From: an uncultured Litoreibacter sp.
Lineage (GTDB): Bacteria > Pseudomonadota > Alphaproteobacteria > Rhodobacterales > Rhodobacteraceae
Direction of reading: 5' to 3'
DNA length: 64,000 nucleotides
Assembly (NCBI GenBank): GCA_947494645.1
Contig: CANLVO010000001.1
Location: 1,798,001-1,862,000, forward strand
Below, piece by piece: positions 54,833-59,141 of this stretch. The notes below the pieces were generated by a model. It ran no database searches, had not been told where the DNA came from, and saw only the letters and a list, made by a program, of their open reading frames with translations. Numbering within the stretch: position 1 is the stretch's first letter; every line of letters starts with the position of its first letter. Made by a program: the position numbers and the translations under genes.

Positions 54833-55497
54833 TACGACGCCTGCGGCGGAGCGTAAAATTCCTGCCCATAAATACCCTCACCTTCAGGTGGCAACGACGC
54901 CTGAAACGCGGGACGCGCTGATAATCTTTCATACCACGCCGTCAATAAGGGGTAGGCTTCTCGCTTCACATAATGACCGCCCGCATAAGCCGCATACCCA
55001 CAGGCAATATCCACGGCAGAGAAGCCGCCATCCAGCAAGTAGTCCCGTCCCTTCAACCGGTCATCCAGCACTCCGAAACACTTGCCCAAACGGGCTGCTT
55101 CCAGCTTCATGATGATCTCAGAGCGCATTGAGGCCTCATACAAAGCCACATGTTGTTGCGTCAGAGACGCGACATGCTGCGCGACCGTTTCTGCAAAATG
55201 CAACCAGACGAGCCAGTCCCTGCGCTCTGCATCACCCGGCGCGCGGCCAAGTCCCTTCTCTGGAAAGGTCTCGCACAAGTATTCGGCGATGGCCCCAGTC
55301 TCGAACATGCAGTCGTCGCCGATCTCCAATGCCGGCACACGTCCCGCGGGGTTGAGCGCCAAATATTTGGGGTCCCGCAGGTTTTTGCCAAACGGATGGA
55401 CGACGGTCTTAAACTCCAGCCCTAACTCGTGAAGCAGCCAAAGCGTCCGCATCGAGCGTGCCTGATGCACATGGTGCAGTCGAATGGCGACGCTCAT
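54832..55497 (-). CDS. Glutathione S-transferase family protein
   Basis: 221 residues with an N-terminal thioredoxin-like part (SMRTLWLLHELGLEF, GRVPALEIGDD, ETGAIAEYLCE) and an all-helical C-terminal domain with FSAVDIACGYAAY. The glutathione-binding pattern is kept. It overlaps mccA by ATGA, so it is translated with the carboxylase. A GST is not an obvious part of leucine catabolism; it may protect against or process a reactive acyl-CoA by-product (inference). Confidence 0.9.
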   Translation of the reverse strand: MSVAIRLHHVHQARSMRTLWLLHELGLEFKTVVHPFGKNLRDPKYLALNPAGRVPALEIGDDCMFETGAIAEYLCETFPEKGLGRAPGDAERRDWLVWLHFAETVAQHVASLTQQHVALYEASMRSEIIMKLEAARLGKCFGVLDDRLKGRDYLLDGGFSAVDIACGYAAYAGGHYVKREAYPLLTAWYERLSARPAFQASLPPEGEGIYGQEFYAPPQAS

Positions 55498-57422
55498 TCC
55501 AACGGCTCCAGCTCAATCATCGGCGCCCCTGCCGCGATCTGGGCATCTTGGCTGACATAAACCTCTGCCACCTTGCCAGCGCGCGCGGCGCGCAGCACAT
55601 GCTCCATTTTCATAGCCTCCAAAACGGCCAGCTTATCGCCCTCACCCACATCGTCACCCGCGGAGACAAACACCGTCTTCACCAAACCCGGCATAGGTGC
55701 CAAGGTGACGTCACCGCCCGTGGACGCGGCCCTGGCGCGGTCCAGCGGATCAACGATCTCGAACGAGTAGGTGTTGCCCCAAAAGATCGAAACACTGCCC
55801 CCATGACGGATCGGCGTTGCATCAATCTTTTGACCGTCTACGGACCAGTCAGACCCGCTCTTTGATATCTGGTGATGAACTTCATCGACCTCCACTTCGA
55901 AGGTGTCTCCGTGTTTCGTATCGACCGTTGCCTCGACGGTCTCTTCACCCCAGCTCAACGCAACCCTTTGTCTCAGCTCGCCCCAAAGCACAAACCCTTT
56001 CAAAGGGTTACCCGACAAACCTAAAGCCTGCACAGCTGCCAGTGCCCTGCAGCGCGTACAGGGTCTGAACGGTTGAGTCAGAGCCTGCAGGTCGCGCTCG
56101 ATGAGCCCTGTATCAACGTCGCCAGCTGCGAAACCCTCATGTCGCGCAAGAGCCTTTAGAAATGCGACATTCGTCTTCGTTCCTGCGATCTGGGTCCGGG
56201 ATAAGGCGTGATCCAGCATCCTCAGCGCCGCCTCTCGCGTGGCCGCATGAACAGTGAGCTTGGCGATCATCGGGTCATAATAGGGCGTGATCTCATCGCC
56301 CTGCCGAACGCCCGTATCGATCCGGGCGTTCTTCGGAAACTGCAAATGCTCCAACATACCGGTCGCAGGGAGGAACCCCGCCGGAACGTCTTCAGCATAG
56401 AGACGCGCTTCAAAGCTGTGTCCGTCAATTGTCAGCTCGTTTTGCGAGGCTGGCAGCGCCTCACCGGAGGCGACGCGCAATTGCCATTCGACCAGATCGA
56501 CGCCGGTGATGGCCTCCGTCACTGGGTGTTCAACCTGCAAGCGCGTGTTCATTTCCATGAACCAGAACCGATCCGGGTGCAGACCCTCTGATCCGTCCAC
56601 GATGAACTCCACCGTGCCTGCCCCGCTGTAACCCACGGCCTTCGCGGCCCGAACAGCGGCTTGACCCATAGCGTCGCGCATTTCGGCTGTCATGCCCGGT
56701 GCGGGAGCCTCCTCGATGACCTTCTGATGGCGTCGCTGAAGCGAGCAGTCGCGCTCGAACAAATGCACTGCGTCGCTGCCATCGCCAAAGACTTGCACTT
56801 CAATATGGCGCGGCTTGGTGACATATTTCTCAATCAAAACAACGTCGTTGCCGAAGGCCTTCAGCGCTTCAGACTGTGCCGCTGCCAGCGCATCTGCAAA
56901 ATCTGAAGGCACGTCGACGCGCCGCATGCCTTTGCCACCACCGCCGGCGACAGCTTTGATCAGCACGGGGTAGCCGATGTCGTCTGCGATCTTGTCCAAA
57001 CCTTCCTGGCTGGCCCCGTGATAGCCCGGAACCACCGGAACGCCTGCGTCTTCCATAAGCGCTTTGGCCGCATCCTTCAGGCCCATGGCGCGAATGGCTT
57101 TCGCAGAAGGTCCAATAAAAACAAGGCCTTCAGCTTCCAGAGCATCCACGAAATCTGGGTTCTCGGATAAAAACCCATAACCCGGATGGATCGCCTGCGC
57201 GCCTGTTCTCAAGGCGGCTTCAATCACCGCGTCGATGCGCAGGTAGCTCTCGGATGGGGTGTTGCCGCCCAGTGAAACCGCCTCGTCTGCCAGTGCGACA
57301 TGGCGGGCATTGGCGTCCGCGTCGGAATGCATGGCAACCGTCCGCACGCCCAGTTTGCGGCAAGTGTCGATCACACGGCAGGCGATTTCTCCGCGGTTGG
57401 CGATGAGAATTTTGTCAAACAT
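55494..57422 (-). CDS. mccA: Methylcrotonyl-CoA carboxylase, biotin-carrying subunit
   Basis: 642 residues: biotin carboxylase domain (FDKILIANRGEIACRVI, then AGGGGKGMR and MEMNTRLQVEHPVTE), a middle BT domain, and a C-terminal biotinyl domain with the biotinylated Lys in EAMKMEHVLRAA. With MccB it carboxylates 3-methylcrotonyl-CoA. Biotin is added by BirA, encoded at 31.6 kb. Also called LiuD. A GTG one codon upstream is the alternative start. Confidence 0.95.
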   Translation of the reverse strand: MFDKILIANRGEIACRVIDTCRKLGVRTVAMHSDADANARHVALADEAVSLGGNTPSESYLRIDAVIEAALRTGAQAIHPGYGFLSENPDFVDALEAEGLVFIGPSAKAIRAMGLKDAAKALMEDAGVPVVPGYHGASQEGLDKIADDIGYPVLIKAVAGGGGKGMRRVDVPSDFADALAAAQSEALKAFGNDVVLIEKYVTKPRHIEVQVFGDGSDAVHLFERDCSLQRRHQKVIEEAPAPGMTAEMRDAMGQAAVRAAKAVGYSGAGTVEFIVDGSEGLHPDRFWFMEMNTRLQVEHPVTEAITGVDLVEWQLRVASGEALPASQNELTIDGHSFEARLYAEDVPAGFLPATGMLEHLQFPKNARIDTGVRQGDEITPYYDPMIAKLTVHAATREAALRMLDHALSRTQIAGTKTNVAFLKALARHEGFAAGDVDTGLIERDLQALTQPFRPCTRCRALAAVQALGLSGNPLKGFVLWGELRQRVALSWGEETVEATVDTKHGDTFEVEVDEVHHQISKSGSDWSVDGQKIDATPIRHGGSVSIFWGNTYSFEIVDPLDRARAASTGGDVTLAPMPGLVKTVFVSAGDDVGEGDKLAVLEAMKMEHVLRAARAGKVAEVYVSQDAQIAAGAPMIELEPLE

Positions 57423-57458
57423 CACAAAGCCTTACGCCTTTCTCAGCGCTGCGCCTGC

Positions 57459-57515: not shown

Positions 57516-59141
57516 TCACATGCGGAACACGCCGAAGCGTGTCTCTTCAATGGGGGCGCATAGGGAGGCCTGGAGGGACACGGCCAACACGTCGCGGGCT
57601 TTGCGGGGGTCGATGATGCCGTCATCCCAAAGCCGGGCGGAGGCATAGAGGGGGTGAGATTGCACCTCGAATTGATCGATAACCGGTTGTTTAAATTCAC
57701 TTTCTTCGGCCTCGGACCAGCTTCCACCCTTACGTTCAATCACGTCGCGCCGGACTGTGGCGAGCACGCCTGCGGCTTGCGGGCCGCCCATCACCGAGAT
57801 GCGGGAATTGGGCCAGGACCACATGAAGCGCGGCTGGTAAGCCCTTCCAGCCATTCCATAATTTCCCGCTCCGAAACTTCCGCCAACGACCATGGTGATC
57901 TTTGGCACAGATGTTGAGGCGACGGCGGTGACCATTTTAGCGCCGTGGCGGGCGATGCCTTCGTTTTCATATTTCTGACCGACCATAAATCCGGTGATAT
58001 TTTGCAGAAATATCAATGGGATACGGCGTTGGGAGCAGAGCTCGATGAAATGAGCGCCTTTCTGAGCGGCCTCGGAGAACAGCACGCCGTTATTGGCGAT
58101 GATACCGACATCGATCCCGAAAATCTGTGCAAAACCAGTGACTAAGGTCTCTCCGAACCGGGCTTTGAACTCGTCAAAGCGCGATCCGTCAACGATGCGG
58201 GCGATGACTTCGCGGATATCGTAAGGGGTTGCTAACGATGCGGGCACCACGCCGAGCAATTCTGCCGGATCGTAGGCGGGCGGATCGAATTTGTACAAAT
58301 TGGGGTCATTTTCAGACCCCCAAAACCCATTTTGTACAAAAGTTTTCACGCTCTTCATCGCGTCGCGGGCCAGCGCCAAGGCGTGGGCGTCATCTTCGGC
58401 CAGATAATCCGCAACACCGGACAGTCTTGTGTGGACATCTCCGCCGCCCAGATCCTCGGCCGAGACGACCTCGCCGGTCGCGGCCTTCACCAGCGGTGGG
58501 CCTGCCAGAAAAATCGTGCCCTGTTCTTTGACGATGATCGAGACGTCGGACATAGCTGGCACGTAAGCCCCGCCCGCGGTGCACGAGCCCATGACGACGG
58601 CGATCTGGGCGATGCCTTTCGCCGACATGCGGGCCTGATTGTAGAAGATGCGGCCAAAATGGTCGCGGTCGGGGAAGACCTCGTCTTGGTTGGGCAGGTT
58701 GGCCCCGCCGCTATCGACCAGATAGATGCAGGGCAGATGATTTTCTTCGGCAATCTCCTGCGCCCTTAGATGTTTCTTAACGGTCATGGGGTAATAGGTC
58801 CCCCCCTTCACCGTCGCATCATTGCACACGACCATGACCATCTTGCCGCAGACATAGCCGACCCCCGCGATCACGCCCGCGCAGGGCGCGGCACCCTCGT
58901 AGAGACCATGCGCAGCCGTCGCGCCAACCTCGAGAAAGGGCGAGCCGGGATCGAGAAGATTGGCCACCCGGTCCCGTGGCAGCATCTTGCCGCGCGAGAT
59001 ATGGCGCTCGCGCGATTTCTCTCCGCCCCCCAAGGCGGCAGCTTCTGCTGCGGCCCGGACCTCGGACAAAGCTTCGAGGTTGGCCGCTTCATTGCTGCGG
59101 AACTCCTCAGAGCTGGGGGAAAGGGCGGAGGTCAGTTTCAT
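57516..59141 (-). CDS. mccB: Methylcrotonyl-CoA carboxylase, carboxyltransferase subunit
   Basis: 541 residues of the acyl-CoA carboxylase beta family ([55 protein letters not shown] and [20 protein letters not shown]). It transfers the carboxyl group from biotin to 3-methylcrotonyl-CoA. Residues about 267-285 ([18 protein letters not shown]) are encoded by a nested palindrome and replace the normal linker. Also called LiuB. Confidence 0.93.
58289..58341. repeat. Palindromic insert inside mccB, read through in frame
   Basis: A 53-base block with ATTTGTACAAAT (58289-58300) at one end and TTTTGTACAAAA (58330-58341) at the other, both perfect palindromes. Between them GGGGTC (58302-58307) pairs with GACCCC (58315-58320) around a 7-base loop. 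It is AT-rich against its neighbours and encodes [18 protein letters not shown] in MccB. It looks like a small mobile palindromic element inserted in a linker. Confidence 0.6.

Follow-up and report, generated by a model that had tools for sequence, protein, structure and literature searches.

Introduction

Short palindromic repeats of bacteria are usually regarded as mobile relics, each decaying independently of the others. HIP1 of cyanobacteria is a single octamer, a palindrome iterated in coding and non-coding DNA at a far higher frequency than the repeat described here, and the protein-coding palindromes of Wolbachia are counted here, with the Rickettsia palindromic elements (RPE), among the closest known systems. 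RPE are 105-146 bp long and are found between genes as well as in frame in conserved genes; their movement by a transposase is hypothesised, not shown (PMC2229807). The CIR elements of Caulobacter and Brucella are repeats of ~110 bp with GANTC and have not been found in genes (PMC2229807).

We have analysed a stretch of 64,000 nucleotides (the window) from the genome of an uncultured Litoreibacter sp. (G000), in which the gene mccB contains a palindromic element of 53 bp. The initial annotation had likened this element to RPE. Like RPE, the Litoreibacter repeats are multi-copy inverted repeats both between genes and in frame within them, apparently tolerated by the proteins (PMC2229807). Unlike RPE, the unit is 53 bp long rather than 105-146 bp, its sites are shared between species with a change in sequence of the whole set, and in tilS it overwrites codons instead of adding length. 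The likeness stands for copy number and for the in-frame copies, but not for the rest: 32 of the 35 copies are intergenic, at least 30 of the 35 sites are shared with a sister species, and the insertion is clean neither in tilS nor in mccB. The Litoreibacter repeat works partly like an RPE but is not one. In sequence, the comparison with RPE consists of a search of 84,980 species for an exact 25-mer, which matches two records, both of uncultured Litoreibacter; the closest records to the genome of the window may be missing from this search.

Other described families also share some features with the repeat. Like REP sequences of the GTAG and CGTC types, the copies are short palindromes that lie mostly between tandem or convergent genes and are occasionally intragenic. 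Unlike REP sequences, they have no GTAG or CGTC tag and no RAYT-type transposase in the genus, and they consist of two palindromes at a fixed spacing of 41 bp, present in about 35 copies. With CIR they have in common an intergenic location in Alphaproteobacteria, two inverted-repeat arms and a DNA motif like that of a cell-cycle regulator, but the motif here resembles a CtrA box and not GANTC, and some copies are in genes (PMC2229807). No GANTC was noticed in the consensus of the repeat. Like MITEs, the copies are short, non-autonomous and have terminal inverted repeats; unlike MITEs, they have no partner transposon, no target duplication seen and stationary sites. With HIP1 they share the short palindrome in both coding and non-coding DNA, but not the unit, which here is 53 bp. 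The repeat lacks the tested defining features of RPE (length) and of REP (tag and RAYT), and is best filed as a variant of short palindromic repeats. It has no earlier description in the open-access literature searched; the few papers that contain TTTGTACAAA presumably do so through Gateway att primers.

The family is of interest in that the same sites persist across species (~85% flanking nucleotide identity) while the units change together, and in that a block swap sometimes leaves even the frame of an enzyme gene intact. This makes it possible to test directly whether dispersed short repeats evolve in concert and whether new copies are seeded by overwriting. The lineage is alphaproteobacterial but does not belong to the Rickettsiales, and its conserved genes take some of their codons from a palindromic repeat.

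The Element in mccB

The gene mccB (57516-59141, minus strand) encodes the 541-aa beta subunit of methylcrotonyl-CoA carboxylase (PF01039); the structure 3u9r, named methylcrotonyl-CoA carboxylase beta-subunit, is among its closest solved relatives. In the list of open reading frames it is followed downstream by a biotin carboxylase-type gene (55494-57425, minus strand), which we named mccA by inspection from context and sequence. The element, read directly from the window sequence, occupies 58289-58341 on the minus strand and is oriented as mccB transcription. In the mccB sense, the left arm is the palindrome TTTTGTACAAAA (58330-58341) and the right arm the palindrome ATTTGTACAAAT (58289-58300), 41 bp away from centre to centre. 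Between them, the centre (58301-58329, minus strand) holds GGGGTC at 58302-58307 and GACCCC at 58315-58320, as well as 18 bp, GGGTCTGAAAATGACCCC, that are identical in the centre of the tilS copy, where they are read in a different frame. The structure first reported for this locus, two 12-base palindromes flanking GGGGTC/GACCCC, is confirmed, and so is the in-frame coding of 18 residues, the 541-aa frame being open across the element.

In an alignment of 13 MccB sequences the mean column identity is 91%, and the element falls between the invariant residues A261 and P288, in 26 columns that have no invariant residue. Among 19 aligned species, five (G000, its sister species G028, G025, G027 and G005) have a recognisable element at the same codon position of a 541-aa protein. 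The copy of G027 is under the profile cut-off and is still an inverted repeat. A sixth species, G021, has a partial remnant; G006, with a long linker and no recognisable element, is ambiguous, and the other 12 have shorter, unrelated linkers. MccB is 531-534 residues long in the six element-free species with a checked start, which means that an element of 18 residues has added ~7-10 to the protein. The initial annotation had taken a Pro-rich linker for the usual state of this segment; in the relatives it is a variable linker, not uniformly Pro-rich. Nor is the peptide NDPNLYKF, suggested as a marker of the element in other proteins, common to the copies, the other two in-gene copies using other frames. 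In G028 the mccB element has different arms, TTTTGGGACATTTTGGG...CCCAAAATGTCCCAAAA, which form a near-perfect inverted repeat in frame, so that the mccB reading frame is kept through a complete change of arms.

Judged by these sequences, the mccB copy is old. It is predicted from the open frame to be translated and is probably neutral for the enzyme. An AlphaFold2 model of MccB was poor (mean pLDDT 45.8) and was not used. In a codon tree of mccB without the element, midpoint-rooted and with several weak nodes, the smallest clade that holds the six mccB-bearing carriers has eight members, including G007 and G021.

A Dispersed Repeat Family

The mccB element is one of 35 distinct copies in the genome, which the initial annotation, although correct about the locus, had understated. 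A BLAST search with 171 bases matched 31 places in the genome, the query itself counted, and a profile applied to the fetched stretches gave the 35 copies. The exact arm TTTTGTACAAAA occurs 46 times against 0 for a reversed control, and pairs of the form TTGTACAA-N20-45-TTGTACAA occur 29 times, again against 0 for a control. All 46 exact 12-mer arms of the genome are inside the 35 elements. The repeat is neither single nor part of a segment conserved in distant MccB: it is multi-copy, the MccB segment is variable, and the copies are partly within genes in open frame, as the initial annotation had anticipated.

From 27 aligned copies, the consensus is TTTTGTACAAAATGGGTTTTGG-N14-ACCCC(A/G)TTTTGTACAAAA, and its ends, TTTTGTACAAAATGGG...CCCCATTTTGTACAAAA, are without GTAG or CGTC at the stem end. 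The terminal inverted repeats have arms of 14-21 bp in the listed family copies. Of 74 arm pairs from five species, 65 have palindrome centres 41 bp apart; of the remaining nine pairs, three are at 31 bp, three at 40 or 42 and three at 9 or 12. The centres of paralogs are 43-63% identical on average, yet the arm spacing is strict. With genes called by a simple codon-usage method, 22 of the 32 intergenic copies lie between tandem, seven between convergent and three between divergent genes; mccB, tilS and leuS hold the other three, in frame. The stretch beside one copy contains an FMN riboswitch (L095, 1539-1671).

Copies Within tilS and leuS

The gene called tilS here encodes a PP-loop protein (PF01171) that we take to be TilS; the leuS copy is in LeuS (PF13603, PF00133, PF08264). 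The mccB, tilS and leuS copies are each in a different frame, and that of leuS is in the opposite orientation to its gene. The leuS gene of G028 also carries an element. In an alignment with 6q89, its closest solved relative, LeuS shows one gap residue inside the element and another three immediately after it.

The tilS site can be compared in 18 relatives: nine are equal in length, eight are longer by one codon, one is longer by four and none is shorter, the reference being G000 and G028, both carriers of the element (G022 falls short of the site). Against the nine native sequences of equal length, the arms of the G000 copy are 22% and 36% identical, its centre 49% and the neighbouring columns 53%; the centre keeps the native EGLK codons. 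The low identity of the arms on native codons, together with the lack of a gain in length, therefore argues that the arms were written over native codons, and on the strength of this alignment the element overwrites tilS without lengthening it. An insertion in the plain sense, as the initial annotation had envisaged for mccB, is thus not seen as a clean event in either gene, mccB gaining fewer residues than the element encodes.

We considered the birth of the family from tilS. The centres of the copies match native tilS at 0.53 for the best and 0.39 for the median. The mccB centre is no worse a match to native tilS than the tilS centre itself (0.49 each), and the carriers G005, G006, G025 and G027 have a native tilS; for these reasons the idea was not adopted. 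The tilS genes of G000 (L089/L250) and G025 (L168/L268) are ~45% identical and the syntenic neighbouring DNA ~76%; one lineage may have acquired its tilS by exchange.

Conserved Sites and Replaced Sequences

For at least 30 of the 35 G000 copies, G028 has an element at the orthologous place, orthology being judged by matches of the flanking DNA within 2 kb on either side; the other five sites were not comparable. None of the compared G028 places is empty, although the G028 stretches were fetched mostly around G028 copies and so show occupancy, not a rate of emptiness, and empty sites could be under-seen. Against G025, ten sites are occupied and three compared places are without the element, one of them not a clean comparison. 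Against G027, seven are occupied and one (mccB) is under the profile; against G006, three are occupied and three not called, one of which (L215) holds an unlisted variant of the element. At the site before an SDR gene, four of the 13 loci read have the element (G000, G025, G027 and G028) and nine, including those of the carriers G005 and G006, do not; five further loci were not parsed. Element-free loci, which the initial annotation had proposed to look for, therefore exist, but few of them are clean empty sites. At the SDR-gene site, the L179 site and mccB, all three with flanks too diverged for a clear comparison, no target duplication is visible.

Some of these loci have repeats of other kinds. 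At the SDR-gene site of G006 (L220), intergenic GTAC words recur about every 11 bp in repeats of CTGTGTAC, and that of G007 (L227) has NATACGG/TGTACGG repeats, also with an 11-bp period. Another inverted-repeat word, CATAGTTCGG...CCGAACTATG, is found in G025 (L164, 9786-9843, and L179), its 10-mer being counted 20 times in the fetched stretches.

At a shared site the sequence can differ between species. At ten of the 30 shared sites the G028 partner has arms of the GGGACA type, in one case beside an TTGTACAA-type copy. With up to one mismatch, such arms occur in G028, G006 and G022 and once in G005, and are absent in the other 17 genomes. Hybrid elements with one arm of each type also occur, for example L138 and L200. 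The centre TTTTG[CT]CCC is present in 27 of 40 copies in G028 and 6 of 11 in G006, against 1 of 35 in G000, 3 of 33 in G025 and 0 of 9 in G027. Among 31 orthologous pairs of G000 and G028, it is found only in G028 in 18, only in G000 in none, in both in one and in neither in 12 (p 8e-6). Of these last 12 pairs, two are in genes (tilS and leuS) and four have a predicted start codon no more than 20 bp away. The homogenisation is only partial, because in the centre orthologs are more alike (identity 0.68) than paralogs (0.56). Strict concerted evolution, weakened by the same comparison, is kept in this partial form.

We favour, with somewhat better than even confidence, a fixed family of dispersed repeats that is stationary, vertically inherited and kept alike by recombination between its copies. 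The shared sites, together with the lack of a transposase, partner or target duplication in what was searched, are the reasons for favouring an old spread, now fixed, with recombination. The family would have arisen in one clade of the Litoreibacter-like genus, spread to ~35-40 sites, mostly between genes, and then become stationary. Exchange of sequence among copies, by gene conversion or template switching, would keep them alike within a species and could exchange either one arm or the entire unit. The copy in mccB would be an ancient member that landed where the protein is hypervariable, between its two conserved halves, in a segment likely to tolerate in-frame sequence. Several points stand against this explanation. 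The constant arms and 41-bp spacing, with diverging centres, look like the outcome of selection on a binding site, which is not expected of a neutral repeat, and gene conversion needs homology, which the arm types F1 and F2 share only partly. The incomplete homogenisation and the scarcity of clean empty sites also count against it.

Motifs Beside the Element and Possible Paired Binding Sites

A TTAAC-N6-TTAAC-AAAT-like motif is found upstream of 26 of the 35 G000 copies, at exactly -31 in 20 of them; the same motif score is reached by 152 of 5000 random 60-mers. As a sequence resemblance, the motif matches the CtrA box, given as TTAA-N7-TTAAC (PMC3692519). It need not be a promoter, because it is also present between convergent genes. 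The motif accompanies 15 of 26 copies in G028, with a looser register, and 11 of 33 in G025, with the register mostly lost. High-scoring matches number 9 beside elements and 1 away from them in G000; the corresponding figures are 5 and 0 for G028, 2 and 0 for G027, 2 and 5 for G025, and 0 and 2 for G006. Of the two G006 matches, one precedes the unlisted variant.

The surroundings of the element also differ between species. Several G025 copies (for example L161, L168 and L169) have a third half site, CTCCGTACAAA, ~12 bp after the right arm. In G028, a species-specific module, GTTAACGAAATAT or close to it, stands directly before the element at L137, L132, L135, L140 and L142, where it replaces the upstream motif of the G000 type.

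The main rival to recombination gives the elements a function at the DNA level. A dimeric protein would bind the two palindromes, which would share a face of the helix and often lie beside a CtrA-like box, and selection would hold the set in place; the mccB, tilS and leuS copies would then be sites that chanced to fall in genes. We consider this possible, though rather less than probable. It may explain why the arms and their spacing hold. In its favour, the 41-bp distance is regular, and the three pairs at 31 bp are shorter by 10 bp, about one helical turn. Between G000 and G028, the right arm is conserved above the coding flank (0.95 against 0.85, with the left arm at 0.87), element sites are conserved across species, and in G000 the CtrA-like motif keeps both its position and its preference for elements. 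A genome of another genus, G347, has a repeat of its own with the same ends, similar spacing and another centre (see below). The arms, however, can be swapped for the GGGACA type at the same sites, and two short binding sites have no need of the shared centre TGGGTTTTGG...ACCCC. The CtrA-like motif, moreover, is weak and out of register in G025, and the family is absent by profile in 14 of the 21 genus genomes.

A composite of overwriting and binding appears doubtful when all its parts are taken jointly. It supposes a transposase-free repeat that overwrites resident DNA at short homology and whose dispersed set is rewritten as a whole and co-evolves with a trans-acting reader protein. In tilS, and perhaps leuS, the overwriting would proceed without lengthening of the gene, and a candidate protein of the clade would read paired TTTTG-N2-3-CAAAA beside CtrA-like boxes, helical phase being kept.

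RNA Hairpins, Transposition and Chance

If the element acted instead as an RNA hairpin, that is, a terminator, attenuator or stabiliser of mRNA, its arms should covary. The fold of the mccB copy does beat dinucleotide shuffles (z -3.1, with 1 of 200 shuffles equally good), several copies are directly 3' of stop codons and seven lie between convergent genes. The copies follow the orientation of flanking tandem genes in G000 (19 of 22, p 0.0009) and in G028 (14 of 18, p 0.03, with one more of unknown orientation), but such a bias is lacking in G025 (14 of 23, i.e., 14 to 9, p 0.40), and the leuS copy runs against its gene. Across 95 copies, the arms form 685 Watson-Crick cells, whereas shuffling the arms within each species gives 690 on average, and 4175 of 5000 shuffles are as good or better. 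RNAalifold found 0 compensatory pairs in 27 G000 copies, and in the five stretches scanned there was no Rfam match at the element. With no covariation from arm to arm beyond the species consensus, an RNA stem under selection is rejected as the main explanation, and we regard a hairpin function as quite improbable.

Still less credible is a miniature transposon that a transposase encoded elsewhere continues to move. The inverted-repeat ends, the many copies, the patchy presence in the genus and the copies inside conserved genes are all of the kind expected of one. The sites, however, are common to several species, tilS shows no gain in length, and the comparisons examined revealed no target duplication. 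With all exact arms accounted for by the 35 elements, no partner IS has these exact ends. The Y1/RAYT transposase family (PF01797, the family searched) was found in 0 of 21 genus genomes, whereas 5 of the 14 known genomes searched as a control have it; a RAYT mobiliser was accordingly set aside. The idea of a mobile repeat, put forward in the initial annotation, is not supported: at least 30 of 35 sites are common to G000 and its sister species, and nothing points to present movement.

That the MccB linker simply varies and is palindromic by chance deserves almost no credence. The segment is hypervariable in all species compared, but this reading is refuted by 35 genomic copies, by 31 BLAST matches, and by 29 paired palindromes where the reversed-pattern controls give 0.

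Distribution

By a profile of 27 copies (E<=0.01), the family is present in seven of 21 genomes of the genus and absent in the other 14. Among 394 sampled genomes of the bacterial family, nearly all of other genera, only the window's own genome matches at 1e-6, in a search with stricter filters than that of the genus and 14 candidates scored per genome. A family spread through the Rhodobacterales, as first imagined, is not borne out: the profile matches its own genus only among these 394 genomes, and the 25-mer matches are confined to Litoreibacter. A phage or plasmid vehicle was also considered and dropped, the exact 20-mer having 0 matches in IMG/VR and plasmids being without a match. A relaxed pattern searched in phage sequences hit a single contig (L249), AT-rich and phage-like, which we took for a chance match.

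The pattern of paired ends, applied to the same 394 genomes, identified one further genome, G347, which belongs to another genus and has seven forward matches. Its repeat (L242, L245 and L248) looks independent: the same TTTGTACAAA ends are 39 bp apart, and the centre, CGACATTTTTCGCGTACAAGACGTAC, is unrelated to the Litoreibacter centre, with GTAC words at offsets of 21, 9 and 9 bp.
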